Positions 3,129 to 60,013 of a stretch of DNA of 64,000 nt are shown piece after piece. Position 1 is the stretch's first letter. The number at the start of each line of letters is the position of its first letter. Source of the stretch: Membranipora membranacea (Eukaryota; Bryozoa; Gymnolaemata; Cheilostomatida; Membraniporidae). The stretch covers positions 22,108,162 through 22,172,161 of the forward strand of contig OU612067.1 in NCBI GenBank assembly GCA_914767715.1, given 5' to 3'. Both the position numbers and the translations under genes were made by a program. The notes beneath the pieces were generated by a model. It did not search any database, was not told the origin of the DNA, and saw only the letters and a program-made list of their open reading frames with translations.

Positions 3129-3190
3129 CAAGTTTGTTCCCTTTGTGGTCGCAGAGGGATATCCCTCCACCACAGAGGGAACAAACTGAT
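3129..3190. repeat. Short hairpin inside the transposon
   Basis: AGTTTGTTCCCTTTGTGGT pairs with ACCACAGAGGGAACAAACT downstream, and the middle holds GAGGGATATCCCTC, itself a palindrome. Lies in the noncoding part of the P-like element. Confidence 0.6.
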
Positions 3191-3728: not shown

Positions 3729-6700
3729 ATGCCCGGAGGGAGCTTTTGCTGTGCAGTTAACTGCTCTAACTCTTCAAGTAATTCATCTAAAAAATTCCAT
3801 GGGTGACTTATTTTATATTATAATTTACAATGTATAGCTTGGATCCATAACAGCAATAGTTGGTGTAAAATTGAGTTTTGTAGGCACATGGAGGGTTGAT
3901 TCCCCTACAGTGGTTTAGTGCCCCTCAAAAAACCACCACCAATCAACAAAATAAGTTGTGTTTTTTGTTGGTTGCTTTCGGTGGGGGACTGTTTGGTGGG
4001 CACTCGACCACTGTTGGGGGATCAAACCTTCAATGGTGCCCATGACTGATATTTTGTACTCTTTGCATTTGTCAGAGCAGAGCTTTTGAATTCAATACCA
4101 CCAAAAATGTTACAATATCGTTCACGCCTATCATTAGACTCACGGATGTATTACCACTAGCGTGTTTGTGTAGTTATTGAATCAAACTTGAATACGTAAT
4201 CAAAAAATAATCATTGTTACAATGCATTGTTATTATAGATTTCCACTGAAAGACCCTGAACTGACCAAAAGATGGGTGGTTGCGACAAAGAGAGAGGGCT
4301 TTAATCCTGGGAAGTCGACAAAGCTGTGCTCCGACCATTTTGAAGACAATGATTACGCCGGAGTGCCAAAACAGTCATATCTAAAACCTGATGCCATTCC
4401 TTCTGTGTTCACTTTTCCAGCACATCTTATGGCATGATGAATATGGCATGAAGCACATAGCTTTAGCATTGCCATGCGGCCAATTAAAAAAAAGGGCCGC
4501 AGGGCAAGGCTACATAACTTTGACATTGAAGCCTAAATCTTTCCATCGGAAAAGAATTGTTAACTCTTTTTTTTTATATGAGGAGTGTATCAGAACTACT
4601 GGATGGATTATTCAGATGATTGAATTATTCAAATAATCAATTTCAATGATCAGAACCGACACTTTAGCTTTGTAGATTACACAAAATATTGCACTCATGT
4701 AAATGTAGGCAATTCTCATTCACAGAACGTGTTAGTTGTGGCTTAACTTTTTTCCTGTTTTTGCTGCCTGTCTTTGTGTCTGAGTTTTTCTCATCGCTTA
4801 CATCTCAGTAGCTGATATTATATCAATCTTGTTGTTTGTAGCCTAAGCAGACCAAAGTCAGAACTGCACGGAAACGCAAATTATCCACAGAAGATTTGCC
4901 GAGCTCAGAGCCAGTTGTAGATGATAGCCCAACCCCAAGCTCCTCTAGTTCTCCGCATGATCATAGTTACAGCGAGGATATAGGTACGTATAGAACAGCA
5001 AACAAACATAGCTCATGCTCATAAAATAATAATGAGTTTATTTGATATCCTTACTATGATCCCGCTTAATGAACTCCAAGATAGGATAACTTCTAAGCGG
5101 CTGTAATTTTGTGGAATTTATAATTTAATGTGGTCGATGTAGATGTTGTAAATACCATAAATGTGTTTGTCTACATATACTTTGGCATTTCTTCGGTCTA
5201 TTATAGTGGCAGGTAGTGTTATTCACAAAATGATAAGAACAAATATGAACACAATCAACTTGATTTTATATTTCACAGATGTCGCAGTAAAAAAGTCTAA
5301 GGAGAGAACTAAGTTACTTGAAATAAAAGTCAAGGCGTTATCCAACAAAGTGCGGAGGCAAACACAGCAAATCAACACCCTCAAATCTCTTTTGGTTGAG
5401 CTAAAAGAAAAACAGCTGCTACAAGCACACCCAGCCGCAATATTAGAACAATGCTTTGACGACAACATAATTGATGTCATCAGGAATGAGTACGAGAACA
5501 GCTCTCTCCATAAAAAGGGTAGGCGTTATTCTGAAGAGACAAAACAGTTTGCTCTAACCTTACACTACTACAGCCCTCAAGCTTATGAGTTCTGCAGAGA
5601 AAAACTTTCCCTACCTCACTCGTCATCCCTCAAGCACTGGCTCAGTAATGTAACATGTGAGCCCGGATTTCTATCTAATGTGATTGAGGAAGCAGCTAAG
5701 TCAAACATAAAAGACTTCTCCCTAGTTGTTGATAGTATGTCCCTCATGAAGACTACAACTTACTCGAACAGTCTGTTCTCAGGATACTGCGACTATGGCG
5801 GTGTTGTCGCAGAAGAAAGCGACCGTCTGGCATCAGAGGCTTTTGTGTTCTTGCTGGTACCTCTGCACTACTCAGTTATGAAATACCCCGTGGGTTATTT
5901 TCTCGTTGACAAGGTAAATGCAGATATTCAAACAAGACTTGTGCAGAATCTTCTCAGCATAACTGCTGAGAAGGGAGTTCTTATACGTAATATAACCTCC
6001 GATGGTGCCTCCGCCAATATCGCCATGTTCTCTGCTCTTGGTGCTGATCTAGATGTACTCAATCCAAAGCCTTACTTTAATCATCCACAACTCGGCCACA
6101 GGGTCTACACTACGCTCGACATATGTCATATGCTTAAATTATGCAGAAACACACTCGCTGACTATAAAGAACTGAAAGTTGACGGTAGGACTGAATCAAT
6201 ATATTGGAATCACATTGTGCAACTATCATCGCTGCAAGATGACATTGGTCTACACCTGGAAATAAACTATTGTCACAACATGTAGCGTGGCTGAAACAGA
6301 AGATGAAGGTGAAATTGGCAGCTCAGACTTTCAGCCGTTCAGTGTCCGATGCTCTGGAGTTTCTCAAGCAAGCTGAAGTCCCAGAATTCAAAAAATGCTC
6401 AGCCACTATAGAATTCATACGTCAGGTATATTCTCAAAACTTAGTGCATTCTTGCTGTATGCTCCTGCTTGCTTTCTTTGAACAGTTAATGCTTAAAATC
6501 TCAATATCAATGTTTAAACCATTCGATATCGATTTTTCAAAAAGCAATATCTCGATACAGTTTGTCTCACTGGGATCTCTTAATTTCAGAAAATTTAGCG
6601 CCATTTTCCACAAGATACTCCAGGGATTACCTTGATTCAAGCCTACTATCTTTTCATAACAATGCTAGGTCAATATGGGTATAGTTGATCTCATATCAAT

Positions 6701-8307
6701 GATTTTATAATTCGTTCCAATACTATAACATTTAATGTTAGTTTTGATATCAAATTATTGATTACATATTTTTGGATTAATCTGAAATCTGTGTAGCACT
6801 AAGTTAAGTTTATGTTGTTGCTTGACACTTATGTTCTGTACTGTTCTTTCAGAGTTCTGCCATTGTTCCTCTACCTTTCAATCAGCGTGTTACGGTGAGT
6901 GCTTGTTGTTAGACTCGACGTTTCGTATTTTTGTAAAAAGAGTTGTTGCTTGTAGTCGAATTGAGTCATAGATAGACCATGATAGAATTTTCATCATTCT
7001 CTGAAATGGTGCTATAAACATCTCTGAATCCCCACTTATCATTCAACCCACCCTAGCCAATGAATAAATAAGTAAATCAGCTATCGTTTCATACCAATTT
7101 GAGTTTTTATCTTTGCTTGCAATGAGATCCATAATACAGAAATTTGGATCGCATTATTGCTTGTTCAAATCTGTGTAAGAGTAGTCTTCTCATGCCAACT
7201 TTCAATAGATATAAACTGCCACTAGCAGTTTAAGTGCATCTTTATCTCTTCTCCGTATTTACTTGGTGACTATTACCTATACAGCAATCTCTACATAATT
7301 GACCAATACAATTACGTATTTCTTTTTCACAGATGGACATCGTATTCGACGTATTAAACTCTAAGAGTGCATACGAGAGATTTTCAAAATCTCCATTACG
7401 ACCTGGTAACATGGCAGAGCAGAGAAAGGACTATGATAACTTCAGAAAATACATCCTTTCCATACAAGATTCGAGCGGCCAACCACTATATAGGGGAAGA
7501 CGCAAGACATTTATAGTAGGCTTCATAAACACATTCCACGCAGTTCTCATGCTAGCAGAGGAGCTGTTTTCCTCAGGTTTGAAGTACCTGCCTACGTTTA
7601 GGATATCACAAGATTTTATAGAAACACTTTTCAGTAAGATTCGCAGGATGGGTGGTCACAACAGCAACCCTACATGTGTGCTATTCAAAGCTGCTCTTAA
7701 AAAGCTACTGTGTAAGCAGTTCGTACAGGGCTCTAACAGTGCAAATGCTTTAGAAGCCGATTCCAACTCCGGCATTTTCTCTCTGAAATGGAGCAAGCGA
7801 ACTGCTCCTGTACCAACTGCTAGTGACATTTCATTGTTAAATGATTTAGTTGAGAAACTTCAACATCTCGAGACAAGCACAAGTAACATAGTTAGGGATA
7901 ATATTGTTACATATGTTGCAGGCTATGTTGTTCGATCACTGTTAGGGTCTGTTAAGTGTGAGGCCTGTGCCGAAGCTTTGGTCGGGAAGCGAGGCTGCTG
8001 TGTCTTTGATCATGACTATCAAAGTTACAGTTACAAATCTACACAGTTACTGAATATTAAGGATAGAGGTGGCCTTGTGGCTGCCTCACAGTCTGTTAAT
8101 GATATTATAAAGCGGTGTGAGTCCATCATGGAACGATATGTTGATAAAAAATTCCTACGTAAAGATAATCATATAAATCTGCTTGTGGCGTTTTTATTCC
8201 GCAGTGTAATTGTAGAAAATCCTATTTTATTATTTACTCATAGCTGTGAGCTTGGGGATGGTGGTTTAGATCACAGCAAACAGTTGATCAGGAAAATAGC
8301 CAAATAG
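3729..8307 (+). pseudogene. THAP9/P-element-type transposase with one frameshift
   Basis: Proposed exons 3729-3802, 4239-4431, 4842-4983, 5279-6425, 6853-6894 and 7333-8307. The THAP zinc finger is split: MPGGSFCCAVNCSNSSSN gives the first cysteines and FH; then FPLKDPELTKRW, KLCSDHFEDNDY and the closing AIPSVFTFP. A basic/Ser-rich exon and a coiled coil (KERTKLLEIKVKALSNKVRR) follow. The DDE region has FSLVVDSMS, NITSDGASANIAMF and LDICHMLKLCRNTLADY. The C-terminal part has FDVLNSKSAYERF, SQDFIETLFSKIRRMGGHN and NIVTYVAGYVVRSLL. Near 6258 the frame slips by one base: HL and then GNKLLSQHVAW are in different frames, as after loss of one G. Exon 2 has no GT donor; a GC donor at 4432 would fit the phase. 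AATAAA at 8477 lies in the 3' region. Confidence 0.88.
3882..4040. repeat. Imperfect inverted repeat in transposase intron 1
   Basis: GGTTGATTCCCCTACAGTGG near 3894 pairs imperfectly with CCACTGTTGGGGGATCAAAC near 4010, with further complementarity inward (CACCAATCAACAAAA against TTTTGTTGGTTG). Probably a small MITE between the two THAP exons. Confidence 0.55.
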
Positions 8308-8879
8308 AAAGTAGAAAATATTTTGATATTCGTATAAAACACTATGTAAAGCATTACAACAAAACAGTTATTCATGGGAGTAAGGGAAAGGTTTATTTTA
8401 TGTTTATGATCTATTTCATTATTGTCTATGAATTAAAAACATTATATCCATGTATCAGTCTGTGCTTGATAGGATCAATAAAAAACATTCATATGAGTAG
8501 CATCTATTGTATCTTCTTCCTAGCATCACTGGTAGGACATAGCATTGAAGCTTATATTTCCTTAATCTTTGGGTTAAAACCTCTGCAATGGTGTTTTGTG
8601 GTTCATCATAGCTTAAAAGTTACCTGTTGAGAGCTATGGTACTTGCAAATCAATGCTTAATCTTAAAAAGCTAACTCCTCCCCCATATAATTATATTTCT
8701 TCAACAGTCCACAGTGATTTGCTTATGTGTTGCTACACAAATCCAATATGGCCGCCGGATACACATGCCTCCACAGGAAGTCAACATTGAGTCATAGCTC
8801 TAGGGGGATAACTCTATGGGTACAACACTTGGTTAGTCTTGTTGGCAGAGTGGAATGAGTGGTTTGTAGTCGGAGATAC

Positions 8880-9110
8880 ATTTTCGGGAAAAAATTGAGA
8901 AGACAACTCGGTATTTCTATAGAGTTGCCACATTTGCTACGCTAGTGGGTTGGAGAATTTGCTACATTTAAAGAATTGCAATGTTTGTGGGTTTGCGACG
9001 TTACAAAAACACTTCGTTATGCCATTTTTTGGATTGTGACGTTAGTGGAATGCTAGATTAGGATGTTTTGACGTTTGCAACGTTTGTGGGTTCAACACTC
9101 CTTCAACAGG
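8880..9110 (+). repeat. CpG-rich motif repeat (TTTGCGACGTTTGTGGG type), copy 1
   Basis: Degenerate direct repeats of a motif like TTGCGACGTTTGTGGGTT at irregular spacing. Shared with 33960-34190 (direct) and 32070-32300 (inverted). Iterated subterminal motifs of this sort are common in hAT and P-type nonautonomous elements, but no ends were defined. Confidence 0.6.
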
Positions 9111-9636
9111 AAGGGGTTAACTCCATACAAAATGAACTTGAGCAAAAACAAATGAAAGAGGGTTGCTTTTCTGCTGTGTTTTACCTCAAGTGGGTCGAAT
9201 ATCTAACAATTTGTTACATCACACCCTCAAGCAATAAAGTACTTCAAGTGTGCACATAAATAAAGGTGAGTTGAGGTGGGAGGGGGGGTGACAAGACACA
9301 ATGAAATCAGTTCTGTGAAGAAGGAGACAGGGGGTCTTTTAATAAGAAACAGCCAAAATTGCAATCTGATTGCTTGAGTGACACCTGCTAGGGGTCTCGC
9401 TCTTAGATCGCTCACTCATTGATGGAGCTATTACATTCTGAGTGAGCGATATGGGAACGATCTTTTCTAATTGAAACACCAAGTGAGCGATAATTTTGAG
9501 CGATGTGATAGTGATAACTTGATTTAGTAAAGCATCGCTCTTTCTAATTGAAAGACCCCCCAGGATTATAGGGAGCATAAGTACCAGTCTTTAGAATTTT
9601 ACTGGTAAATTATATCAAGCCCACAGAACTGATGGT

Positions 9637-9963
9637 TTAAAAGATTGATGTACAATTATTGTTAATTCTGGAGGTCAAACTGAGTAAAGAAAGCAAATCT
9701 CTAAACTTACACTTCTCAGTATCCGACTCAGTATCCGACTCTGTATCTGAATCTGTATCCCACTCAGTATACAGCTCTGTATCTGTATCCCACTCAGTAT
9801 ACAGCTCTGTATCTGAGTCTGCCACCGACTCAGTATCATTGTCTGAGTCTTTAGCATGGCGCTCAGCACCTCTCTGGTCTCCTTTAGTCTCTGAATCAGC
9901 TCCCTCTGCTTTATCTTTGTCTGACCTCTGCATTCTGTTTCTGTCTGTGGAAGATTTAATCAT
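9637..9963 (-). other. Repeat-borne charged low-complexity frame, copy 1 (unknown)
   Basis: Minus-strand frame starting MIKSSTDRNRMQRSDKDKAE, then KDSDNDTES and short DTES/DTEL-type repeats, then EK and a candidate donor GTAAGT. The same arrangement (ATG, charged start, D-T-E-S repeats, donor GTRAGT) is found at 34733-35104 and 35648-35941. It could be a first exon carried by a repeat family, or only a repeat-derived open frame. No function is proposed. Confidence 0.4.
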
Positions 9964-10438
9964 GAAAAGAAACAGTCTCTGTTAGCTCTGGCTCTGGTTA
10001 TTGTATGAATGCAGTTTCAAACTGAGTGCTTGTTGCTAGAATTCAGAGCCAACTTTCCTGCCAACTCTTAGTAGCCATTAATACATCAGCTGGGCCAACA
10101 GCCTGACCAACAGGAAACCATGTCATCCAATGATGTAAACTCAATATTGATTCATTTCAATTCAATTGTTAAGGACATCATACACAAAGTTAGCCAGAAG
10201 CATAAGTACATAATTCAAAAACATCGTTTGGGAAGAGCATGGAGTCAAAACAATCAGGGCGGGTGCAAAGCAAACGCAAATGGGGTGCTGAAAGTTTGTC
10301 TTTTTATCAGACCAGGATGAAGCCCCGTTCAGGATGCATTTAAAGGTAAATAAATGGCAAATCCTGGTTGTGACTTGAGCTATATAACTAAATTTCATTA
10401 AATTTTAATCAGAGCGTTTCGGGCAACTCTTGCTTGTT

Positions 10439-18878: not shown

Positions 18879-19319
18879 TCATTTTAGCTTTGGTAAGCCG
18901 AGCTTCTCCATGAGACACTGCTTTGAAAACATGTTTTGGTTTTGTTGAAGATCTGATTTAGGCGCTGCAGGGGGAAGCACAAGACATTTCTTGAGTGTGC
19001 TTCTGGTTTCTGATGTTTGGAACTTGCTGTCTGGCTTACGATCCATAGCTATTTTGGCATACGTTACCATTTCATCTATGGTTTTCTTCCCATCGGCCAG
19101 AGCAAACTGGCTGGCTATGGCTCCTGTGAAGGCACCTCTATGAGACATTCCTCCAGCCACTGTTGACATGAGTAACAGAGTATGAGGCCTCTCTAGCTCT
19201 ACATGACGCTTTTCAGCTGTGTTTGCATGACCAGCATCTTTCTTCTGTCCTTGAGCATCTCTCTGCTGTCTTTGAGCACCAGCTTGAGAATGTGCTTGAC
19301 AAGCCTGAATTATTAGAAT
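18879..19319 (-). CDS. Caspase active-site Cys and small-subunit (p10) exon
   Basis: Terminal 441-bp exon, stop TGA at 18879-18881. It starts ILIIQACQ, the caspase QACxG motif with the nucleophile Cys at 19299-19301; the usual glycine after QACx is replaced by Ala. A Gln/Lys/Asp-rich stretch of about 37 residues, with Asp at exon residues 21 and 28, could be the interdomain cleavage linker. The p10 part has [15 protein letters not shown], where SHR matches the SWR of caspases and gives the second S1 arginine. It closes with a Leu/Pro-rich tail and [16 protein letters not shown]. All four expected residues (R, H, C, R) are present, so activity toward Asp is plausible. Confidence 0.88.
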   Translation of the reverse strand: MLIIQACQAHSQAGAQRQQRDAQGQKKDAGHANTAEKRHVELERPHTLLLMSTVAGGMSHRGAFTGAIASQFALADGKKTIDEMVTYAKIAMDRKPDSKFQTSETRSTLKKCLVLPPAAPKSDLQQNQNMFSKQCLMEKLGLPKLK

Positions 19320-22300
19320 CTGCAAAATCAACAAAATGAGCTAAATGTGACATACTATACAGGCACCAGTGATGGTAACTATGAAGATCTAGCTCCTAAT
19401 AATTGCTAATAAACAAAGTTATCATACAGCTGTACAATAAAAACCTACAATCCAATGTGTGGATCGTGATTTGATCATCTCAACAAGAACATGAATAAAT
19501 GCTGTCGGTGTGGCTAATAAAATCAATGAAATGTATGAATGTTTGCCTTGGTTGCATCATAATGCATCATCAGGCTCATCTTTTCCACTGTTATTGTGTG
19601 AATAATGATCTGAGTTTGTCGTGTATCACAAATGTAGCATTGTTGTTCATGGTGAACTCAATTCGTTAGGTCTCACAATCTCACCAGGGGGATCCGTTCA
19701 GGAAGTAGTTCTGCTAGCAACTCCAGCAATTCAGTAATAGACATCATGCAGTTGTTGTTTCCTATCAACGAACCAGCTGTACCATGTGACATGACAGACA
19801 TAACAAGTAGTGACAGACCTTGCCTAACCAATGATGGGAGGCTGGAACGGATTTCGCGAAAAAGATCATATTCTTTCCATTTCGTTGTCTCTGTCACAAA
19901 TCCAGATTTGTCAAGGCTCTCCTTCATAATACGAGCTTCTTCCTCAGCCCCTTCCCTGTTCACAGAGTTGAACATCACTAATCCACATCTCTTTACATTA
20001 GTTTGCTGGTATGGGATGATATACTGATCACTGAGATCAAACAGACGGTTGATGTCGTCTATGTTGAGTGGATGCTTCTCTATGAGTTCCTTCAGTATTT
20101 GCTGTTCGCCTTAACGAAAGAAAATTGAAAAATTCTATATTGAAATGCAGGAGAGAGGAAGTGACTTATATTAATTGATAAGTCACTATTAGGTATTGGA
20201 AACATATTCATGTAATTTTAGATTTTGCATTGATTAAGCTCGCTGGTTTCATTCTAGGTGGGCTTCGACGAAGAAACCTGGGTTTAACAAATGTGGGGTT
20301 TATCAAACACGTTCATCCGTTGCATTTCAAGATAACATTTGAAGATAACAGATGCTATAAGGTTTTAAGTTTCTGAATGATGAGCTTACTTGATATAATC
20401 TTTAGCTTTGAGATATAGTCTTCTAGCACTTCATGACCTGTCTTGTCTATGCTTGAATCTGAAATATTGAACAGCATGTTTTACCTGACACCAACCTTCA
20501 GTCCGATTGCATCAGAAAACAGAGAGAGGTTAGGACAAGATGAATATGTTTGCTAACTCTCCCAAAAAATGGTCAGGCTTTTGAATAGTAAATTAGTTAC
20601 GATAAAACAATTACACTTAGATAACGTCATAGACTTAATAATAAAGCTTGACAGGACACTATATATAGCTGAAGTGTGGCACTTTATTGTGGGGCAACGT
20701 AACGTAATTTGTAATTCTTTACTAATTTATTATGAACTTTTATTAACCACCGATCAATGCGTGAAGCAAATAAGACCATGTGAAAACAAAAAACAAAAGA
20801 AAAAATAAGAAGGCATTGATGTATTGGCGTATAAATTATTCACAAATACTTTCGTACTAATAGGGATTCCCCTGATTTCGTGAAATGTTGGATGTTAACG
20901 ATGCAAGTAACCGAATCGCGTAGACTTTCACAAACTGTTATCTGATTGGCTGTCAGATTTGAATGATTGGCTGTTTGTTTTGATTGATAAGTCAAGGCCA
21001 TATCTATGTAAACAACTTTGGTTAAAAAGATGCAATGGTTGATCAATATGTTGAGTGTCTCATTGATTTGGACCTGGAGCAAGAGGGAGAGGGGATGCAA
21101 TGACTAATGGGGTATCAAATTGAATAAATATGAGGAGATAGTTGAGCCTACGCATATCCAGAAGCTGAATCACTGGGCTGGTTGGTATAATAAACAAGGA
21201 GAAACAGCTTCTCCTTGGTTTAATTTTTTCTTTATAATTTTTCTCTATCACTGTAGGCCGATGATTGAGACTGGCTGAGGAGGATTACAGAATGATAACA
21301 CCCATAAATCATTAGTACGAATTTGGGAAATGACAATCATGAATGCCAGGCTGATATTCGTACAAAATTTATTTTGCAAGAATTGGTGGAAATTTGCACG
21401 AGCATGTGGCCTCTGCTTTAATGACAAGCTGCTAACTCTATTGTAATTCTCAAAGTCCGTTTAAAATTGATCGAGTGATCAACAAAAAGCCTGGATTTTA
21501 GACAGTAAATCAATGGTAGCATCTTTGCTTCTAACTTCCAATGACGTTACGTAGCCCACAATTAACTTCCTCAATGCCTCAATGCTTATGCTCCATAGAG
21601 TGTCCTGTCTAGGTATATTATTAAGTCTATTGATTACGAACACTTTGTCATTATAGGATTGCCTAGCAGACAACAAATTCTTCAATAAAACAGTTTACTT
21701 ACATGGATACATGAGCAGTTTCGGCACACAACGACGGTTCTTATCAACTTCCCTACTGCACACATAGGTGTCCTCACCAGTATAGCAAACATTGTCTGCC
21801 TCTGTTGTTTTGAACCAAGAAGGATCAACTGCTTTAGCCGGATTCATATTGTTTGCCAGTAGGCAGTGAGAACAATAGAATATACTCTCATACCGTATCC
21901 CCTTCCACACAGACTTAAGTTCCTCTGTGAGCTGTCGAAGAGTAGTAAGCTGCATATGCCATGCCTCACAGATCTTTTTCTGGTGAGTGAGTGTTATTAA
22001 GGTGACCCTGCATTCTTTTGATTCATGGAGTAGATGCTGAATGATCCCGTTACCAGTAGTGATTGAAGCACCATTTGTGCCCACCTCAGGAAAGCTTGAA
22101 AGGTGTGAGTTAATACCCAAGTAAGAAGCAGTAATGAGAGAGAAGACATATCCAGGTACAGGAAGACCGCGAAGTAATAGATCTATCTTCAACGGGATGA
22201 GCTGTCCAAATACCGAAGGTGCTACTACCATTCGAGTGGCAAAATAAGGAATGATGTATTTCTGATTGCTTATTGCAGCAGTTGAACCACATAGATGTAC

Positions 22301-25300
22301 AAGGTGGAATGTTCTTAGGATTTCGATGGATACATCAACAGGGAGTTTGGATTCTTGCTCTAAGAGGTGTCGAAGCAGAGGTGCGTCAATCACTCCTGTT
22401 TCTTTGAATGTGTCTATCATCTCTTTGTATCTGCTCTTTTCTATGGTTTTTCCATCAATGGGAAATGGAATAAATTCATCTAGCCTTTTGTTCCAGGATT
22501 CCTCCAGTGTGTGGTTGTATAGGACTTCTATCACACTTGTTATGACTTTTGAGCGATGGAATATAAAGTTTGATAGATTGTCTAGTCTCCTGAACCACAT
22601 TATTTGACTTATTTCATGAAGATACTCGAGAGTGACATGTCCTTTATCATCAGGAAATTCTGTCTCTATTTCAGACAGGGTGAGCATGGGCTTGTCAGAG
22701 TGTTGGACTAGCTTCTGTAGTATTCGATACCAGCTACCGGGAATCTCAGTGATTAATCCTGCACCAGCTGCTATGATAGCATTTTTCAGCTTGTCGATTT
22801 CAGGCTGTCCGGATGTCTTCGAGAAGTGATGGATGTCACAAGGCCTTATCAGGACTTCTGAGGTGTTGGCGAAGCTGGTCATGGTGAAGATCGGGTTAGA
22901 GTCATTGTTCAAGTTCTGATTGACATTATTTTCTGCTTGGATGATACGTTGGCGCAATTTCTCAGTGACTTTGAGCAGTTGATGAGTCGTCTGTTCAACC
23001 TTATCAGGTATACTGTCACAGTGAGTGAGGACTACTACAGGTCTCTTCAGTTGAGGACACGCAATGTAGAGGTGGGATAACCACTCAATACAAAGCTCTT
23101 GGCAGGCAGATTCCTCACCTTTCTCTGAAGCTAATCTATCAAACTCAGCAATGTCTATCACTAGCAGCGGCACACATTTTCTTTTAAAAGACAGTCTATA
23201 GGAAAAGTGATGGATCTTCTGGCCTCCGAAGTCAGTAAAGAGTATTTTTGATTTCTCATCAGCGTCCGCCTCGCTCATTTCAAACACTTTAGTGGCAGCA
23301 TCCAATTTCCCCTCATCAGAATCGCGTTGTGTCAGCACCCTTTTGTTTGCTTGCACACTGTTAACAAGGCTTGTTTTACCAGCTCTGCTTTTCCCTATGA
23401 CTGTGACAGGTATAAGTCTCTGATTACTGGCTTTCTCAATATGGAGGTCATGAATGTACTTTCTCACAGCTTCTACACCTTGCGTACAGACACCTAGTGG
23501 TGGAGATGTTAGAGAATCACAGTTATCACACTCTACTTTTTCTAATGTTGGGATACTGAATAAGCTCTCGGGGATGGTTGTGATGGATCTGTTATTCCTG
23601 ATATCCAAAGACTTCAGATTAATCAGCTGGCTGATGCTGCAAAAGAACAGAAGATAAAGTGTATTGTGTGAGAACGTAAAAATGGTCATCTGGAATCATC
23701 TCATTCAGAGGGGATAATGCTGGGAAGAGAGGGATGTGGCGAAGTATGCTGAAATGTTGGCCAAGTAGAACCTTCCTACAACTGATTAATAGTTATGAAG
23801 TTGAAATGGATATAAGATCCTTTTAACTAACAAAATGAAAATGCTCCAATTCAATTTCAATGGCAATCGAGAATAATATTGATGAATGCATACGAATGTT
23901 TATATACGTGTTTCTGTAATATTCATCAAGACTAGACGATATTAGACTTCATTAACTTCAACCTCAAAAACATTTCTGAGATCAACTCATCTTGACTCAA
24001 TATTATCTTTTTTTTTTCTTCGTTTTTTAAGCTTTTATTGCACTAAATTAATATACTAAGAATGTTATTTAAAAAATATAAATGGTTATAAAAGGCACAG
24101 GGACAACCAGATAGCCAGTCAAAGGCTAGCGTGAAGGCTGCCCAGCTCAAGATTTCCTCCCCTACCGCACGATCCCACCGAAAAGGCGGGGAAGCATGCC
24201 GAACCGGAGCCGGCCTAGGCCGCTGCCCACAGCCGTCCAGCAAGACCTGCCGCGGCAACAGGCAGAGAAGCGGCCTCTCATCCCAATAGGTACCTGTTGT
24301 ATAGTTCTATACCACTACACAACAAGGACCTTCCACCTCTATTGTTGTTGGTTTTAATTGGTTTGAGTTTAGTTGATCGCGTATGATAATTGTGAGATTT
24401 TGAAAATTCATCTAGTTTTTCAGGACTATAAGTTTTTAAAAGCAATTTTAGTATAGAATATTTGAATAGCATATCGATCGGCATAATTTTCAATTTTTTA
24501 AAACACGTTGTGACATGAGAATTTGGTTTAATTTTGAGTATGACCATTAGGCTTGCTTTTTGAATGATTAAAACACGTTTTAAATCTGTTTTGTTTCCAT
24601 GTCCCCAAAACTCTAGAGTCTAGACCATATAATAAATGAGGATAAAAAAATGTATAATATATGTCAATAAGAGTGTTTTGGTCTAGGTAAGGCTATGGCA
24701 AGCATCATGAACAAACATAAATTCAGTTTTCTAACAAGTTCAGCTATGTGTTTGGAGAATGAGATATTGCTGTCTAAAGTAATTCAAAGAAATTGTGTAT
24801 CCGGTTTTATTTGAAGAGGAATGTTGTTTAAATTGAGGGAAAAATCATTAAAATTAAGTTTTTTGTTTGGTGCTCTAAAAATTATCTGAATAGTTTTATG
24901 ATAATTTATAATCACCTTATTTGCACGACACCAGTTTTCTATGCTAGTTCAATTTTCATTTTGGATTGCTCTGTGGAGAATATGTTTGTATCATCAGCAA
25001 ATAAAATGTATTTCAAGCTTGGTGATGCCTTCAACAGACCATTGATAAAAATTAAAATTAGCAGAGGGCCTAAGACCGATCCTTGGGGTACACCTTTTTT
25101 TAGGGTTAAAAATGAGCATTTTGCATCATTGATTTGAACAAATTGTTTTCTGTTTGATAAATAACACTTCATGAAGTCTTTTGAATTTTCTGTAAAATTG
25201 TAAAGAGTAAGTTTTTGTATTAAAATATCATGGTCAATGGTGTCAAAAGCTTTAGAAAAGTCTAAAAATATACCCTGAGTGATTTTGCTAGAATTAAAAT

Positions 25301-28300
25301 TTATATATAAATCTTCCATCAACTTATATATGGCACCCGTAGCATTTCTTCCTTTCCTAAAACCGAATTGGCTGTCAGTAAAAATGTGATTTGTTTCAAA
25401 AAACTCATTAATCTGTGCAGCTAAAATCTTCTCCGAAATCTTGGATATGACACTGAGTATTGAAATAGGACGGTAGTTTGAGCAATTTGTTGGATCGCCT
25501 TTTTTATGAAGTGGTTTAACACGGGCAACTTTAAGTAGGTCTGGGAAACAAGAGTTTTGAATTGATAGATTTACTAACTAAGCTAGTACTGGAGCAAGGC
25601 TATATTTGTTGTCTTTTAAAGCTTGGATGGGTATTTTGTCATGGAAAGGCTTTATAAAATATCAATTATTTCTTGAACCCCAATTAGGTGAAAATCAAAT
25701 TTTTGGATGTAGGGGATTTGGATGGTCAAAATACTGTCTAAAATCTGTTTTTGAAGCAGGCAGTGCCACTGACAAGTTAGTACCAATATTTGTGAAAAAG
25801 TTATTAAATATTTCTGAAACTGCTTTTGGGTCATCAATTAATTGTTGGTGGTCAACTTTAAGAGCTATACAACTAGTCTCTGTTTTTTTGCTTTGATTAA
25901 GCAGACTTTTGATAAAACGCCATTTTTCATTTTGGTTGCCCTTACATTGTGAAAACTGTATCTTATAATAATTGCGCTTGGCTTCTTTGATACATGATTT
26001 TACGAAATTGCGGAAATTTATATAATGTTCTTGCACAATTTTGTTAAAAGGCTGATATTTTGCTTTATCGTTTAGTTCAGTGCGCTTTTTGGTCAAATGA
26101 AATAGCTCAGGTGTCATCCATTCTTTTTGGAAGGCTTTTTTGATGATTTACCGCTTTTAATTTTAAAGCTTTTACTTGAACTTTCAATAGCCTGGGTCAT
26201 AGTGTTTTGAAATTTTATTAAAAGCTAGATTTGTATCACTACAATGTAAACAGACTCCCAGTCACAAGCTGGTAATCGATCTTTTGAAATGTAGCATTAT
26301 TGCTAGCAATTTTATTGTTTTCAGAATGTTGCATATATGAGAAAGCCAAACACACAGGCAGATGGTCTGCAATCTGGTAATTTATGGTGAAAGACCTAAT
26401 GTTTTGTTCAAAAATTTTTATTAAGATGTGGTCGAGCATACTTGTCTTGGGTTTGCCAAAGCGAGTCGGAGTAGAAATAGTATTAAAATGACCATTTTTT
26501 CCAATCAAATCAAGATAATTGTAGGAAAATTTATCCAAAGGGTTTTCATAGTTAATATCAATATTAATATCCCCAACAACAACAGGGCTAGATGGGAGGG
26601 AAGGCAGCAGCTCTGCCAAATCACCAACTGTAAGTATTTAAATAATTATAGTGCGTGGATTCGAGGAAGAGACACAGGGCTCAGTGAAAATCAACTTATA
26701 AGTAAGACTAATAATGAGAAAAAAACTCACTGTCACAACTTAAAATAAGTCATGGTGGTAATGACTTTTTCAAACTTATATTCCAATTTTATCATAAATA
26801 AGCTGCATACTTATAATGGATAAATTACCCACCTCTCTGGTAATGTTGATAGATCACAGTCTGACACATCTAAGACCTTCAATGACCTCATCATACCTAT
26901 ACTATCAGGTAATGTGTGTAGATTATTATTACCGTACACATCTAACGTCTCTAGAGCAGTCAGTGAGCCGATACTATAATATATAAAGATAAGTAAGACT
27001 AACAATGAGAAGAAAACTCACTGTCACACATTAAAATAAATCATGGTGGTAATGACTTATTCAAACTTATATTCCAATTTTATCATAAATAAGCTGCATA
27101 CTTATAATGGATAGATTACCCACCTCTCTGGTAATGCTGATAGATCACAGTATGACACAACTAAGACCTTCAATGACCTCATCATACATATACTATCAGG
27201 TAATGTGTGTAGATTCTTACTATTTGACACATCTAACGTCTCTAGAGCAGTCAGTGAGCCGATACTATAATATATAAAGATAAGTAAGACTAACAATGAG
27301 AAGAAAACTCACTGTCACACATTTAAATAAATCATGGTGGTAATGACTTATTCAAACTTATATTCCAATTTTATCATAAATAAGCTGCATACTTATAATG
27401 GATAAATTACCCACCTTTCTGGTAATGTTGATAGATCACAGTATGACACAACTAAGACCTTCAGTGACCTCACCATACCTATACTATCAGGTAATGTGTG
27501 TAGATTATTATTACCTGACACATCTAACGTCTCTAGAGCAGTCAGTGAGCCAATACTATAATATGTATAAAGATAAATAAGACTAACGATGAGAAAATAA
27601 CTCATTGTCACGTATTAAAATAAATCATGGTGGTAATGACTTATTCAAACTTATATTCAAATTTTACCATAAATAAGCTGCATACTTATAATGGCTAAAT
27701 TACCCACCTTTCTGGTAATGCTGATAGATCACAGTATGACACATCTAAGACCTTCAATGACCTCATCATACCAATACCATCTGGTAATGTGTGTAGATTC
27801 TTATTACCTGACACATTTAACGTCTCTAGAGCAGTCAGTGAGCCAATACTATAATATGTATAAAGATAAATAAGACTAACGATGAGAAAATAACTCATTG
27901 TCACGTATTAAAATAAATCATGGTGGTAATGACTTATTCAAACTTATATTCAAATTTTACCATAAATAAGCTGCATACTTATAATGGCTAAATTACCCAC
28001 CTTTCTGGTAATGTTGATAGTTCACAGCCTGACACATCTAAGACCTTCAATGAGCTCATCATACCAATACTATCAGGTAATGTGTGTAGATTCTTATTAC
28101 CTGACACATTTAACGTCTCTAGAGCAGTCAGTGAGCCAATACTATAATATGTATAAAGATAAATAAGACTAACGATGAGAAAATAACTCATTGTCACGTA
28201 TTAAAATAAATCATGGTGGTAATGACTTATTCAAACTTATATTCAAATTTTACCATAAATAAGCTGCATACTTATAATGGCTAAATTACCCACCTTTCTG

Positions 28301-30842
28301 GTAATGTTGATAGTTCACAGCCATACACATCTAAGACCTTCAATGACCTCATCATACCAATACTATCAGGTAATGTGTGTAGATTCTCATTATATGACAC
28401 ATATAACGTCTCTAGAGCAGTCAGTGAGCCGATACTATAATATATAAAGATAAGTAAGACTAACAATGAGAAGAAAACTCACTGTCGCAACTTATAATAA
28501 ATCATGATGGTCAAGATTTATTTTAAACTTATATTCCAATTTTATCATAAATAAGCTGCATACTTATAATGTATAAATTACCCACCTTTCTGGTAATGTT
28601 GATAGATCACAGCCTGACACAACTAAGACATTCAATGACCTCATCATACCAATACTATCAGGTAATGTGTGTAGATTCTTATTATCTGACACATTTAACG
28701 TCTCTAGAGCAGTCAGTGAGCCGATACTATAATATATAAAGATAAGTAAGACTAACAATGAGAAGAAAACTCACTGTCGCAACTTAAAATAAATCATGGT
28801 GGTAATGACTTATTCAAACTTATATTCAAATTTTACCATAAATAAGCTGCATACTTATAATGGCTAAATTACCCACCTTTCTGGTAATGTTGATAGATCA
28901 CTGTCTGACACATCTAAGACCTTCAATGAGCTCATCATACCAATACTATCAGGTAATGTGTGTAGATTCTCATTATATGACACATATAACGTCTCTAGAG
29001 CAGTCAGTGAGCCGATACTATAATATATATGAAGATAAATAAGACTAACGATGAGAAAGTAACTCATTGTCACATATTAAAATAAATCATGGTGGTAATG
29101 ACTTATTCAAACTTATATTCAAACTTTACCATAAATAAGCTGCATACTTATAATGGCTAAATTACCCACCTTTCTGGTAATGTTGATAGTTCACAGCCTA
29201 ACACATCTAAGACCTTCAATGACCTCATCATACCAATACTATCTGGTAATGTGTGTAGATTCTTATTACCTGACACATATAACTCCTCTAGAGCAGTTAG
29301 TGAGCCGATACTATAATATGTATAAAGATAAATAAGGCTAACGATGAGAAGATAACTCATTGTCACATATTAAAATAAATCATGGTGGTAATGACTTATT
29401 CAAACTTATATTCCAATTATATCATAAATAAGCTGCATACTTATAATGGATAAATTGCCCACCTTTCTGGTAATGCTGATAGATCACAGCCACACGCCCT
29501 TATCACCTTCAGTGACCTCATCATACATATGCCATCTGGTAATGTGTGTAGATTCTTATTACGTGTCACATCTAACTCTTCTAGAGCTGTCAGTGAGCAA
29601 AGACTGTAATATACAAAAATATAAGTGAGGATAACTATTAGAATATATCTCATAATCACAATTTATATTAAATTATCCCTTCTTCATTTATGGTGTGTAG
29701 AGAAAATGCAAAGCTTAGAGGCCAGAGAGCAGTGCGCTTTCTGTGAAATCAATACACAAAACAAATATTGCACCACGAGTAGTGTGCTCATGTCAGAGCA
29801 CAGCGTCACTTTGTGAAAACAAAGCGAACGTTGAGTAAGTGTGCTCATGTCAGTGAGTGGAGAGTTAATTTTGGAAAATAAGCTTTATAAATATCTACAA
29901 GATATTATCTTCTAACGGGAATAATCACTTGTCAGTGCCGGGCGAAAGAAATATGAATATCGATATACATTTCCCGAATGAAATATCTGCATCGAGTAAA
30001 TCGAACCAAGGAGTTAAAGACAAGGAGATGCAACAAAGACAGCCTCCTGATTTTGATGAACTACCCTAATTTAAACAACTATAAAGCTTAACTTCAGAGT
30101 TTTCTCCCCCTGTAAGGAGGAGAGACAACTACCGACAGTGTGAAATTATGACATGAATATTACTGCCGGATACATTGTGAGAGTTTATCTCACTATTTGG
30201 AATTTTGTGTTGATAAAACAGCAAGTGGAAAATTGGTCAAGAGTGAGGCGATGTAATGGCTCAGTGACTTCAAGACACAGCTGTCAGATCTGCAACCATG
30301 GAGGCTCGCACCAAATGTCAGATTCTAGCCAAAGACTCCTATAAAACTCACATGTATCACACAATACTTATGCAAAGCATAATGAGTTTGTAAATTTCAA
30401 TTTCCCACCAAGCCCTCCTCTCATCTCCTGTTATCCCAGCAAGACATTTCCCATCAGGATGTTGGTTGCTATTTCAACAAGACATTTTCCCAATAACCCT
30501 TATCCCACTATTACTTCTTTCAAAGGCCGAGCCTTCAACTCAATGCTGATAGCCTTTCTAATTTTATGGTTATGTTTGATGTGAGACTACCCCATAGACC
30601 AAATGCTTACAAAAATACCTACCTCTGTAGCTGATCTTTGTCGGAGATCCTCTCGAGCCTGAGAGCTCTCAGATTAGGTACCAGCTGATCTAGATTAGGA
30701 GGGATATCACCGCGAATAACCATGGGTGAGATCTGACGGTCACAGATAGCCGCTTCAAGTTCTGATAAGGTCATGGATCTGAACTTTTTATCTTTTATGT
30801 TATCAATTCCAGGCATTACCATACCGTACCATACTCTGTAAC
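18879..30842 (-). CDS. LRR-Roc-COR-caspase fusion protein (5' end incomplete)
   Basis: Multi-exon gene built by reading GT-AG introns on the minus strand: 30842-30623, ten 141-bp LRR exons (29603-29463, 29310-29170, 29017-28877, 28726-28586, 28434-28294, 28141-28001, 27848-27708, 27555-27415, 27264-27124, 26973-26833), then 23636-21703, 20458-20390, 20109-19685 and 19319-18879 (TGA stop). All junction phases agree and give about 1,500 codons. Order: N-terminal part with LRR-like spacing, about 20 LRRs, a last LRR pair, Roc GTPase, COR, a Cys-rich segment, a linker, then caspase large and small subunits. ROCO proteins are GTPase-regulated scaffolds or kinases, and caspases are Asp-specific cysteine proteases. 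Joining them suggests a ligand-sensing, GTP-switched protease, possibly in immunity or cell death; that role is inferred. An earlier exon may lie at 31431-31344. No start codon is fixed. A LINE sits in the intron between the LRR array and the Roc exon. Confidence 0.88.
19685..20109 (-). CDS. Caspase large-subunit (p20) exon
   Basis: A 425-bp exon encoding about 142 residues. A short helical lead-in ([20 protein letters not shown]) precedes [19 protein letters not shown], matching the first strand and the R-x-GA motif of caspases; that Arg (19955-19957) aligns with an S1-pocket arginine. Further on, [12 protein letters not shown] carries the catalytic histidine (codon 19784-19786) in the animal caspase SHG motif. 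The exon ends LLPERIPL at donor GTGAGA, and the next exon continues directly with the strand leading to the catalytic cysteine. It resembles metazoan caspases rather than metacaspases. Confidence 0.88.
20390..20458 (-). CDS. Linker exon between COR region and caspase
   Basis: A 69-bp exon with acceptor TTTCAG and donor GTAAGC. It reads [19 protein letters not shown] then IIS, charged and probably helical. Its entry phase (two bases) and exit phase (one base) fit both neighbours, which is the main evidence that the ROCO and caspase parts belong to one transcript. No domain recognised. Confidence 0.75.
21703..23636 (-). CDS. Roc-COR exon of the LRR-Roc-COR-caspase gene
   Basis: A single 1,934-bp exon. 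Residues 1-50 hold a final LRR pair ([25 protein letters not shown]). The Roc GTPase follows: P-loop GKSRAGKTS at 23369-23395, switch II DFGGQ, and THCD as the guanine-specificity motif in place of NKxD. The COR region follows ([53 protein letters not shown]). The C-terminal part has paired cysteines ([29 protein letters not shown]) that could bind a metal. The fold order and G motifs are those of ROCO proteins such as MFHAS1, LRRK and DAPK1; no kinase or death domain follows. Acceptor TTTTGCAG at 23637, donor GTAAGT at 21697-21702. Confidence 0.92.
24008..26697 (-). mobile_element. LINE (non-LTR retrotransposon), decayed, in the ROCO gene intron
   Basis: Minus strand, 5'-truncated near 26697 where LRR-array intron sequence resumes. 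Endonuclease remains at 26619-26239 ([35 protein letters not shown] in place of the usual SDH). Reverse transcriptase follows (26117-25695, then 25322-24939 with [29 protein letters not shown] and FADD). The C-terminal tail is at 24547-24278 ([10 protein letters not shown]). A GC-rich 3' region and an A-rich tail (T run at 24008-24018) close it. Frameshifts and stops break the ORF. Confidence 0.88.
26833..29603 (-). repeat. Tandem array of ten LRR exons (about 292-bp period)
   Basis: Ten exons of exactly 141 bp alternate with nine introns of 150-152 bp. Each exon starts with one base and ends with two bases of a split serine codon, so exons can be added or lost without breaking the frame. Each encodes 47 residues, two LRRs of the type [22 protein letters not shown] and [15 protein letters not shown]. 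Introns occur in two types (A: 'aagataagtaagactaac'; B: 'aagataaataagactaac') in the order A A B B B A A B B by rising coordinate, a mosaic expected from block duplication or unequal exchange. The exon at 29463-29603 is the most divergent ([15 protein letters not shown], and VIRACGC in place of VLDVSGC). Plus-strand open frames over this array are antisense shadows. Confidence 0.93.
30623..30842 (-). CDS. N-terminal exon upstream of the LRR array
   Basis: Exon of 220 bp with acceptor TTCTAG at 30843-30848 and donor GTAGGT at 30617-30622. It reads [14 protein letters not shown] near its start and ends [17 protein letters not shown] plus a split serine codon, which joins the first LRR exon in phase. 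The last 30 residues have LRR-like leucine spacing. It begins with two bases of a split codon, so at least one exon lies further upstream (higher coordinates). I do not recognise a separate domain here. Confidence 0.75.
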
Positions 30843-32300: not shown

Positions 32301-33959
32301 AATTGCTGCTGATAAGAGCATACAGACTTCAAAACACTGTGGGGAGTTGAAATATTGTGCAAATTGCTAAAAGAGAAAAATTTTCACTTCCTAGGATCAT
32401 GGTAAAAATTATTACCTCAGAAATAATTACTGCCGCCGAATATTGGATGCTTATAAATGTTGGATGATTACGAAACTAGATTATCAATACTCAAACTTGA
32501 TGAACTAAATGTTCATTTCCAGATCTCCAGATGTTTCTGTTTAACTAGAGTTTCCCCATGCCGACCTTTTCTTGATTAAGACCATCAAACATTAATATAG
32601 AACTACCCTACTTGATAACAATATTTTTAAGAAATTCACCTGATACATTACGATATTTGTTTTATGCACGATCTTATATGTCAATTGTCTTGATCAGCAA
32701 ATAAATCGAGATTAGTATTATTATCATTAATATCAAGAAACAACTGAGGCAGAATCAGCAAACATGCCTAGCTTGAAATATACCGTCATGTTTTATATAG
32801 GCTATGCTAAAAGTTTTCAAGATGTAGTACACTGCTTGCTGTATTTATAATGGGAAAATTGTTACACCAGTTATGCATGAACGACTTCATCTTCACTTTC
32901 CACCATAACATTGGGAAGCAGACAACAGTAAAACTATGAGTTATCCTTTTTTATTTTGTGAGGGAACAACTCTCATAAGTGAAATTGGTTTCCTTATCCG
33001 AGCATCTTCGATTGCTACAATGTAACAGCTCAAGGTTCCATGGTACCTGTGACAAATCAATATAATCATCATCATCATTTTTCCAGCATCTCTCCAGCAG
33101 ATTACATTTTCTTCAAGGGTAGAGGCAGGACACATGGTGACCATATCGTGATCCAGGCACTTGCAGACATGCTGAGTATGCAAATACTCATTTAATCGTC
33201 TACTAAAAACTCAGATATTTTGATTCGGCCTGATGGCCCAGGCGTATTAGACTTAGACCCAAGTGAGCCATATATTGTCCTCCGTAAATTACCAAAAAAA
33301 CAATGGAGAATACTTTGTAGCACTTGGACAAGATTTGACCAATGTTGTTAATGTCATTACAAGGCCACCGCAGATGAGACTTTAGACAGAGAGCAAAATT
33401 CATGTGACTCCTTTAACAAGGGTGCAGTCAACAGAATCACCCCGAAGCTCCTTCCCAGCTATGGTTACATCACCTGTACAGGCCTCAGAGGACATGACAG
33501 AAAACTTGTTTGACCTTCCAGAGGAAATTTTACCAGTGATATTTACTATGGTTGTCAACAATAACTTAAAACATACAAAAACAAAAATATATCAGATGTT
33601 CCTGGACATCCAAGAATTGCTTGGGTTTGTGTTAGCGTATGTCCCATCCTTATTACCATTACCAATTCATTTTTCAACCGTGTCTTTCTGGAGATATCAT
33701 CACTTTCTATATGTAAAGGAAAATGGGTGGGCTAAACATTTTGATCGATAATGACTCCATTCCAAGGGAAGCAATTTATATGGATGCCTGCATGAAAAGG
33801 TGTTGAATCTGCAGAAACTTCCAGTAATCCGAACCAGCCTGAGTGCGGTATTACGTGCCAGCGGCAAAAAAATTGGGCTAACATAATAATGAGAATAAGA
33901 GATGGTCGATGGTACAACACTTGGTAAGTCTTGTTGCAGAGTGGAATGAGTGGTTTGTA

Positions 33960-34190
33960 GTCGGAGATACATTTTCGGAAAAAAATTGAGAAGACAACTC
34001 GGTATTTCTAGAGAGTTGCCACATTTGCGACGCTAGTGGGTTCAAGCATTTGCGACGTTTAAAGAATTGCGATGTTTGTGGGTTTGCGACGTTACAAAAA
34101 CACTTCGTTCCGCCGTTTTTGGGATTATGACGTTAGTGGAATGCTAGATTAGGACGTTGTGACGTTTTCGACGTTTGTGGGTTCAACACT
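33960..34190 (+). repeat. CpG-rich motif repeat, copy 2
   Basis: Direct counterpart of 8880-9110 within segmental copy 2. It keeps more intact CGACG motifs (TTTGCGACGTTTAAAG, GGTTTGCGACGTTACAAA) than copy 1, where several have become TGC or CTAC. Confidence 0.6.
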
Positions 34191-34732
34191 CCTTCAACAA
34201 GAAGGGGTCAACTACATACAAAATGAACTTGAGCAAAACCAAATGAAAGAGGAATGCTTTTCTGCTGTGTTTGACCTCAAGTGGGTCGAATATCTAACAA
34301 TTTGTTACATCACACCCTCAAGCAATAGAGGGCTTCAAGTGTGTACATAAATAAAGGTGAGTTGAGGTGGGAGGGGGGGTGACAAGACACAATGAAATCA
34401 GTTCTGTGAAGAAGGAGACAGGGGGGTCTTTTAATTAGAAACAGCCAAAATCGCAATCTGATTGCTCACTCACTGAGTGAGTCTCACTCACTGAGTGAGT
34501 GAGACCTGCTAGGGGTCTCGCTCTTAGATCGCTCACTCATTGATGGAGCCATTACATTCTGAGTGAGCGATCTGGGATTGATCTTGTCTAATTAAAGCAC
34601 CAAGTGAGCGATAATTTTGAGCGATGTGATAGTGATGACTTGCTTTATAGTAAAGCATCGCTCTTTCTAATTGAAAGACTTCCCAAGATTATAGGGAGCA
34701 TAAGTGCCAGTCTTTATATTTTTATTGATGTA

Positions 34733-35104
34733 TTATATCAAACCCACAGAACTGATGGTTTGAAAGATTGATGTACAATTATTGTTAATTCTGGAGGTCA
34801 AACTGAGTGAAGAAAACAAATCTCTATACTCACGCTTCTCTGTATCTGACTCTGTATCATTGTCTGAGTCTTTAGCATGTCCCTTAGCAACTTTCCTGTC
34901 TGCCACCGACTCTGTATCTGAATCTGTATCCGATTCAGTATCCGACTCTGTATCACAATTTGTATCCGACTCAGTATCATTGTCTGAGTCTTTAGCATGG
35001 CGCTCAGCACCTCTCTGGTCTCCTTTAGTCTCTGAATCAGCTCCCTCTGCTTTATCTTTGTCTGACCTCTGCATTCTGTTTCTGTCTGTGGAAGATTTAA
35101 TCAT
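34733..35104 (-). other. Repeat-borne charged low-complexity frame, copy 2 (unknown)
   Basis: Same start (MIKSSTDRNRMQRSDKDKAE) as copy 1. The repeat block is longer here and includes ADRKVAKGHAKDSDNDTES, absent from copy 1 but similar to copy 3. Candidate donor GTGAGT after EK. Length differences come from gain and loss of D-T-E-S hexamers. Confidence 0.4.
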
Positions 35105-35527
35105 GAAAAGAAACAGTCACTGTTAGCTCTGGCTCTGGTTATTGTATGAGTGCAGTTTCAAACTGAGTGCTTGTTGCTAGAATTCAGCGCCAACTTTCCT
35201 GCCAACTCTTAGTAGCCATTAATACATCAGCTGGGCCAACAGCCTGACCAACAGGAAACCATGTCATCCAATGATGTAAACTCAATATTGATTCATTTCA
35301 ATTCAATTGTTAAGGAGATCATACACAAAGTTCGCCAGAAGCATAAGTACGTAATTCAAAAACAGCGTTTGGGAGGAGCATGGAGTCAAAACAATCAGGG
35401 CGGGTGCAAAGCAAACGCAAATGGGGTGTTGAAAGTTTGTCTTTTTATCAGACCGGGATGAAGCCCCGTTCAGGATGCATTCAAGGGTAAATACATGGCA
35501 AGTCCTGGTTGTGACTTGAGCTATATA

Positions 35528-36020
35528 ACTTGCTTTAGTAAAGCATCGCTCTTTCTAATTGAAAGACCCCCCAGGATTATAGGGAGCATAAGTACCAGTC
35601 TTTAGAATTTTATTGATATATTATATCAAACCCACAGAACTGATGGTTTAAAAGATTGATGTACAATTATTGTTAATTCTGGAGGTCAAACTGAGTGAAG
35701 AAAACAAATCTCTAAACTTACGCTTCTTTGTATCTGACTCTGTATCTGAATCTGTATCTGACTCTGTATCCGACTCAGTATACGACTCTGTATCTGACTC
35801 TGTAGCATCGCCTGAGTCTTTAGCATGGCGCTTAGCAACTTTCCTGTCTGCCATCGACCCGGAATCATCTCCCTCTGCTTTATCTTTGTGAGCTCTCTTC
35901 ATTGTGTTTCTGTCTGTAATAGATTCAATCATAAAAGGCAACTATTACTGTTAGTTCTGTTTGTTGTCAGAGCGCACTTTCAAACTGAGTGATTGCTGCT
36001 AGATTTCGGAACCAACTGTT
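35528..36020 (+). repeat. Partial tandem third copy of the duplicated segment
   Basis: Repeats the part from GCATCGCTCTTTCTAATTG through the Ser/Asp-type minus-strand frame (35648-35941) to CAAACTGAGTG, directly after copy 2. Matches about 34640-35180 with moderate divergence. Confidence 0.75.
35648..35941 (-). other. Repeat-borne charged low-complexity frame, copy 3 (unknown)
   Basis: Starts MPFMIESITDRNTMKRAHKD and keeps ADRKVAKRHAKDSGD and D-T-E-S repeats. A GTAAGT donor candidate follows the KK-R codons. The most divergent of the three copies. Confidence 0.4.

Positions 36021-51948: not shown

Positions 51949-60013
<8,065 letters not shown>

Follow-up and report, generated by a model that had tools for sequence, protein, structure and literature searches.

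A family of predicted LRR-Roc-COR-caspase receptors in the genome of the bryozoan Membranipora membranacea

Could leucine-rich repeats (LRRs), a ROCO-type GTPase and a caspase be encoded together in a single animal gene? This question is raised by a stretch of 64,000 nucleotides (the window) on chromosome 3 of the bryozoan Membranipora membranacea (assembly GCA_914767715.1, contig OU612067.1, positions 22,108,162 to 22,172,161), whose minus strand carries a series of exons for LRRs, for the Roc and COR domains of ROCO proteins and for a caspase. As judged from its exons and from related loci, the window gene probably belongs to a large family of predicted single-chain LRR-Roc-COR-caspase receptors in bryozoans. 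The best support for one gene is the constant order of Roc-COR and caspase in this family.

Exon structure and domains of the window gene

Splicing of the window sequence gives a predicted minus-strand gene running from 30822 to 18879, at 22,127,040-22,138,983 of chromosome 3, in 15 exons, with GT-AG borders and compatible phases, and the spliced reading is 1,492 amino acids long without any internal stop. By Pfam and a structure model, the domains of the predicted protein follow one another in the order of LRRs, Roc, COR and caspase. The features are as follows.

30623..30822, minus strand: exon 1, with the start ATG and an N-terminal segment leading into the LRRs (open frame; donor GTAGGT, phase 2)
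26833..29603, minus strand: ten 141-bp phase-2 LRR exons (29603-29463, 29310-29170, 29017-28877, 28726-28586, 28434-28294, 28141-28001, 27848-27708, 27555-27415, 27264-27124, 26973-26833)
21703..23636, minus strand: large exon of 1,934 bp with the last LRR, the Roc GTPase, COR and a C-terminal extension (splicing; Pfam PF08477; AlphaFold/Foldseek)
23369..23395, minus strand: Roc P-loop GKSRAGKTS (motif; AGKTS invariant in a five-row alignment)
23222..23233, minus strand: switch II DFGG (motif; D and GG invariant in the same alignment)
20390..20458, minus strand: small linker exon of 69 bp, phase 1 on both sides (splicing; a similar small exon in eight loci shown)
19685..20109, minus strand: exon of 425 bp with a linker and the caspase large subunit, p20 (PF00656; window-type p20 in other loci)
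19955..19957, minus strand: Arg codon of the p20 S1 pocket, in NREG (motif; role by homology)
19781..19789, minus strand: catalytic His motif SHG (motif)
18879..19319, minus strand: exon of 441 bp with the catalytic Cys and the caspase small subunit, p10, closed by the stop TGA at 18879 (splicing, Pfam)
19299..19307, minus strand: QAC motif of the catalytic Cys (motif)
19137..19139, minus strand: Arg codon of the p10 S1 pocket, in MSHRG (motif; role by homology)
24942..26637, minus strand: remnant of a retroelement (reverse transcriptase) within the intron that separates the LRR array from the Roc exon, non-coding for the gene (RVT_1, E 7.3e-33 at 24942-25577)

A sequence-only reading of this DNA had placed exon borders at 23636, 21703/20458, 20390/20109 and 19685/19319 and the stop at 18879, and all of these are present and phase-compatible. 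It had also extended exon 1 to 30842, where an upstream AG sits; its beginning is better placed at the ATG at 30822. Residues 31-112, encoded by exon 1 and the first LRR exon, align with the N-terminus of an MFHAS1-like protein (P0001) of another bryozoan, Watersipora subatra (E 9e-10). The LRR exons with their introns form units of a 291-293 bp period that are 86-93% alike among copies. Each 47-residue LRR exon may be read as two LRRs; a search with a strict LRR pattern gave 10 repeats in the array, and the Roc-COR exon itself opens with an LRR. In the retroelement, the open reading frames 25698-26147 and 26242-26637 have no Pfam match at E 0.01, and both are provisionally assigned to the RVT_1 element next to them.

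LRR_14 (E 2.6e-77) and PF08477 in Pfam, together with the motifs, confirm the LRRs, the P-loop and the DFGG of the sequence-only reading. Roc contains both P-loop and switch II, COR lies directly behind it, and by these motifs Roc would be a GTPase. COR, without a Pfam match in the window protein, was recovered by structure prediction, and in relatives it lies below the Pfam cut-off. The AlphaFold model of the Roc-COR exon, built on a 34-row alignment, has a predicted local distance difference test (pLDDT) score of 83, against 33.7 from the single sequence, and has a Foldseek match to 6hlu (5.7e-17). The predicted fold of the GTPase half resembles CtRoco and LRRK2, and as a PDB sequence match Roc-COR finds CtRoco 3dpu at E 1.5e-9. 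The Pfam scan of the window protein contains no NACHT or NB-ARC ATPase, and no family of death-fold prodomains (CARD/DED) at E up to 1. With neither CARD nor DED nor any further recruitment domain found in the chain by Pfam, an adaptor step would be unneeded in principle.

Roc-COR and caspase in the genome and in a second bryozoan

The genome was searched over 339,339,785 bases in 18 contigs. Each search scored the best candidates only, so that the counts are lower bounds and the true number may be larger. With the Roc-COR exon of the window as a query, at least 68 exons were obtained (the window's own counted), 66 of them stop-free, and 67 of the 68 are followed on the same strand by a caspase match 468-3,084 bp downstream. 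A diverged member, L009, used as a query gave 51 of 68 exons paired with a caspase. The two queries pooled yield at least 130 distinct Roc-COR exons (the window's included), 112 of which are paired, with a median gap of 920 bp (468-9,767). Joined by six further paired Roc matches and seven fetched loci, these make at least 125 colinear loci of Roc and caspase on nine chromosomes, the window included. The same strand also carries, about 95 kb from the window gene, a near-identical copy of it (G000:C3:22031962-22036686; 96-98% in the Roc-COR and caspase exons).

Furthermore, the same order is obtained from Pfam searches. A Peptidase_C14 search found at least 145 matches (best 140 of 515 candidates), merged to at least 135 loci. 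Twenty of these, on seven chromosomes, were fetched; 19 have an upstream same-strand match to the Roc-COR exon, and in 18 the match reaches into Roc. In the fetched stretch of L010 there is no Roc-COR match. L020 matches exon positions 1-79 only, ahead of the P-loop; with LRR exons and this pre-P-loop part of the Roc exon followed by a caspase, L020 is a possible GTPase-free LRR-caspase. A Roc search gave at least 148 matches (best 150 of 372 candidates). Among the 72 with an open frame of more than 200 amino acids, 51 have a same-strand caspase within 10 kb downstream and none is in another arrangement. Chance adjacency of Roc and caspase is thus rejected, since random placement gave 0.43 pairs on average and never more than 4 in 500 trials, and flipped strands gave 0. 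When eight Roc loci without a Pfam caspase match (L030-L037) were fetched, seven proved to have caspase exons, of the window type in L030-L033 (44-62% identical) and of another type in L034-L036. Among the first eight loci, L007 had been a candidate for the caspase closest to that of the window gene; it was dropped, having no significant Roc match in its upstream DNA.

The junction between COR and caspase also bears on the single chain. Twelve of 14 loci (14 of the 20 fetched) close the COR exon with a phase-1 GTRAG donor, and the acceptor ahead of the next small exon reads as phase 1 in the eight loci shown. At L038, one open frame of 1,634 codons runs unspliced through about 40 LRRs into Roc-COR, and window-type p20 and p10 exons come next on the same strand; a linker exon of the 69-bp type was not found there by a hidden Markov model (HMM). 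Giant open frames of 1,634-2,462 codons containing Roc-COR exons occur at L038 (1-6801), G000:C11:3048916, C11:2957939 and C3:14198708. Thus, LRR arrays occur in both forms, split by introns in the window and intronless in L038. Exon phases and a common order in so many loci support, as a gene model, the single LRR-Roc-COR-caspase gene that had been proposed from the window alone.

A profile of five family members used in a protein search gave 205 matches, of which 120 are listed. One of them, P0033 of W. subatra (NCBI protein, 944 amino acids), is a single annotated protein with Roc-COR and a full caspase; it starts inside the P-loop, and its Roc (16.7 bits) falls below the cut-off. P0033 matches the window in Roc-COR at 31.7% (E 1.3e-89) and in the caspase at E 2.9e-5, with a similar Pro-Cys junction. 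Because it spans both parts, support for the fusion comes from two bryozoan species at least. Metagenome contigs contributed the Roc-COR frames P0002-P0032, whose identity to the window is 33-64%, and named bacterial COR proteins among the 120 listed matches are far weaker (best E 4.8e-26, mostly with about 17% of the query aligned). A protein search with residues 590-1492 gave P0001 as the sole match; this is an LRR-Roc-COR protein that ends without a caspase, which W. subatra has besides P0033 with one.

The caspase of the window protein matches Peptidase_C14 (PF00656) at 49.9 bits (cut-off 21.4), and relatives score higher, 83.2-96.4 bits in three and 127.9 in P0033. The catalytic His and Cys and the pocket Arg of both p20 and p10 are all present (NREGA, MSHG, QAC and HRGAFT), and when the window is aligned with L015, L018, L009 and L028, all five rows agree in the p20 Arg and Gly, in SHG and IIQAC and in the p10 Arg. 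In PDB, relatives match CED-3 and caspases-9, -8 and -1: the 60 chains listed for P0033 are all caspases (best CED-3, E 1.2e-22, and caspase-9, 7.3e-22), and the best for the L018 caspase is caspase-1 (E 7.6e-13). The caspase half therefore appears to be of animal type, a class made clear by the relatives, and the metazoan-type caspase with R, H, C and R of the sequence-only reading is borne out by the Pfam score, the motifs and these PDB matches. In the Roc-COR and caspase exons, the ratio of nonsynonymous to synonymous change (dN/dS) is 0.08-0.47 in 38 of 44 comparisons, in which dS is often saturated; five are not estimable and one is 4.4.

Proposed action and rival readings

ROCO proteins change both their nucleotide state and their form, monomer or dimer, and initiator caspases are activated by proximity. 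From this known behaviour, steps of sensing, switching and activation may be proposed. The LRR solenoid would bind a variable ligand, microbial or non-self, and binding would shift the nucleotide state of Roc-COR and its balance of monomer and dimer. The C-terminal caspase domains would thereby be brought together or held apart, so that proteolysis could be turned on as in an initiator caspase, and cleavage of the protein itself or of its substrates would lead to cell death or an inflammatory response. By this analogy, it may be inferred that ligand and GTP control the protease and that no adaptor takes part.

Several results weigh against a single-chain LRR-Roc-COR-caspase family. In the window protein, Roc (PF08477) scores 25.3 bits (E 2e-5), just below the cut-off of 27 that three relatives reach with 27.2-31.4 bits, and COR has no Pfam match. 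The window caspase domain alone matched no PDB chain, its region as a query in the protein search found no homologue, and its Cys motif, QACQA, departs from the usual QACxG. Elsewhere, L010 is without an H motif, L022 and L023 are without a recognisable QAC, and THA replaces SHG in L030. In the 68-exon set, three caspase matches that lie less than 10 kb from a Roc-COR exon sit in another arrangement. Eighteen of the 130 Roc-COR exons have no caspase match among the matches listed, although the fetched DNA of one of them, L035, does hold caspase exons. Among three fetched Roc loci outside the 130, caspase exons are found in L034 and L036 and not in L037, whose fetched stretch contains a partial Roc exon only. 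The phase-1 GTRAG donor is missing from its expected site in L014 and L028. Separate upstream LRR exons were found with the window-LRR HMM in only seven of the 20 fetched stretches (L009, L011, L013, L018, L020, L026 and L028), which extend only a few kb upstream and where LRRs may be diverged; the full LRR array is therefore shown at some loci only. Finally, the dN/dS of 4.4 comes from the Roc-COR pair of L015 and L016, with very few changes.

What such receptors would recognize may be reflected in the LRRs. The ten LRR exon copies of the window gene differ pairwise by 0.41-0.44 at 12 predicted concave sites versus 0.05-0.08 at the other 35 (permutation p 5e-5; the sites were assigned after the table of variable sites had been seen, and the test is thus not blind). 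In nine copies, dN (0.080) is about equal to dS (0.077), and the introns diverge by 0.064. Window positions 24199-22598 share 95.4% identity with L030, about 150 kb apart, over 1,603 bp; identity then drops to 73.5% within the Roc-COR exon, and the two caspases are about 50% identical as proteins. This tract looks like the product of gene conversion or exchange between paralogs. L024 and L025 form a mosaic pair as well, with Roc-COR exons 93% and caspase His/Cys exons 47% identical as proteins. The varying LRR faces and the large clustered family support the receptor-like character already suggested by the sequence-only reading. It is possible, if rather doubtful, that more than 100 hypervariable receptor-proteases, with sensor, GTPase switch and executioner in one chain, take the role of NOD-like receptors (NLRs) and adaptor inflammasomes, for both immunity and colony recognition, and gain new specificities through gain and loss of LRR exons and through paralog exchange. 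That allorecognition, the distinction of self and non-self colonies, is the main task rather than microbial immunity, with cells killed or walled off at contact with a foreign colony, seems unlikely. Bryozoans are colonial, and a very large clustered family with varying LRR faces and a paralog exchange tract would fit a polymorphic recognition system, but family size, LRR variation and exchange fit pathogen sensing too.

Somewhat less credible is a single chain in which the caspase serves chiefly as a regulated scaffold or as a pseudo-protease comparable to cFLIP, the output being assembly or signalling and not cleavage. The motif departures of the window (QACQA), L030, L022, L023 and L010 speak for it and suggest that part of the family may be inactive, with the latter four as possible pseudo-protease members. 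Two caspase-like proteins of the genome, L001 and L002, have also lost the Cys motif (FVFFDSST and LVYIDC replace QAC) and are likely inactive caspase homologues. However, in the window and 28 fetched loci (29 caspases in all, the caspase-free L037 omitted), loose patterns accepting THG and THA find the H motif in 28, QAC in 27, the p20 Arg in all 29 and the p10 Arg in 25, and dN/dS of the caspase exons is mostly well below 1.

Two adjacent genes, an MFHAS1-like LRR-Roc-COR gene and a caspase gene working in one pathway as separate proteins, would accord with P0001, with the 1.2-kb intron between COR and the next exon in the window and with the two of 14 loci lacking the donor, but exon phase and family order make this improbable: the phase-1 donor is kept in the other 12, the window exons after COR have no in-frame Met before the first caspase strand, the gap is short and the order constant in 112 of 130 loci, and P0033 is annotated as a single protein that continues through a similar Pro-Cys junction.

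Elsewhere in the window, pieces of a P-element-like transposase lie in two frames at 5161-8304 on the plus strand (PF12017, PF21787, PF21788, PF21789), and a reverse transcriptase open reading frame lies at 48863-50122 on the minus strand (RVT_1, E 1.7e-38). Local duplications of about 91-96% identity join 1-1049 and 8819-10389 with 32805-35530, and 56154-60274 with 60357-64000.

Comparison with known systems

If the single-chain reading of the window gene is true, an animal design for immunity or cell death without a separate adaptor would exist, in which a GTPase gates a caspase receptor, with at least 125 Roc-COR and caspase loci in one genome. The family would offer candidate recognition genes for a phylum of colonial animals, and a system for asking whether nucleotide cycling and dimerisation of a ROCO GTPase gate a protease, a question that bears on the biology of LRRK2 and MFHAS1. 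In the NLR inflammasome and the apoptosome, sensor repeats, a nucleotide switch and a caspase output are combined, as in the proposed bryozoan receptor. Unlike the window gene, these systems use an ATPase of the STAND (signal transduction ATPases with numerous domains) type, and death-fold domains recruit the caspase, which is a protein of its own.

No description of an animal ROCO-caspase was found in the titles, abstract openings and passages covered from openly licensed papers, and the main text of a recent bryozoan genome comparison, in its available form, contains neither the word immune nor the word caspase (PMC13326412). The statement of the sequence-only reading that no characterised ROCO-caspase was known holds for animals as far as searched; the architecture as such has precedents in bacterial LRR-Roc-COR-caspases (PMC8195603) and in amphioxus LRR-caspases (PMC2575513), as described in the available texts.

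Among animal ROCO proteins, the MFHAS1/MASL1 type, as presented in the available text of a review whose main text lacks the word caspase (PMC6337361), shares LRR, Roc and COR with the window protein. The alignment of the MFHAS1-like P0001 with the window protein covers residues 247-1144 of the latter (29.6% over 916 columns); unlike the window gene, P0001 has no C-terminal caspase. Brown algal ROCO genes, according to the available text of PMC11378527, likewise have phase-2 LRR exons, which are shuffled there, and are proposed to be immune receptors. They differ in that their exons are 72 bp long with one LRR each and that group 3 has a C-terminal peptidase, IPR009003; the word caspase does not occur in that text. 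In amphioxus, hybrid genes of LRRs-caspase and TNFR-caspase were proposed to link recognition directly to apoptosis, and here too animal receptor repeats are fused straight to a caspase (PMC2575513, available text). No Roc-COR GTPase is mentioned for them, and no word beginning with Roc or GTPase occurs in the main text of that source.

The closest parallel in architecture is bacterial. According to the available text of Kaur et al. (2021; PMC8195603), the C-terminal effectors of LRR-AP-GTPase(Roc)-COR conflict proteins are of at least 24 kinds, a caspase being one of them, and the domain order given there for the LRR-Roc-COR-caspase form is that of the window gene. Several paralogs per genome and rapidly evolving LRRs are further features that these proteins have in common with it. 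Unlike them, the bryozoan family has a caspase of animal type, introns, at least 125 loci and a single kind of effector. The architecture thus has a bacterial precedent; within the range of the searches it is new for animals, and the number of its loci is remarkable. Its parallel to bacterial LRR-Roc-COR-effector defence proteins is one in which an evolutionary link can be put to the test.

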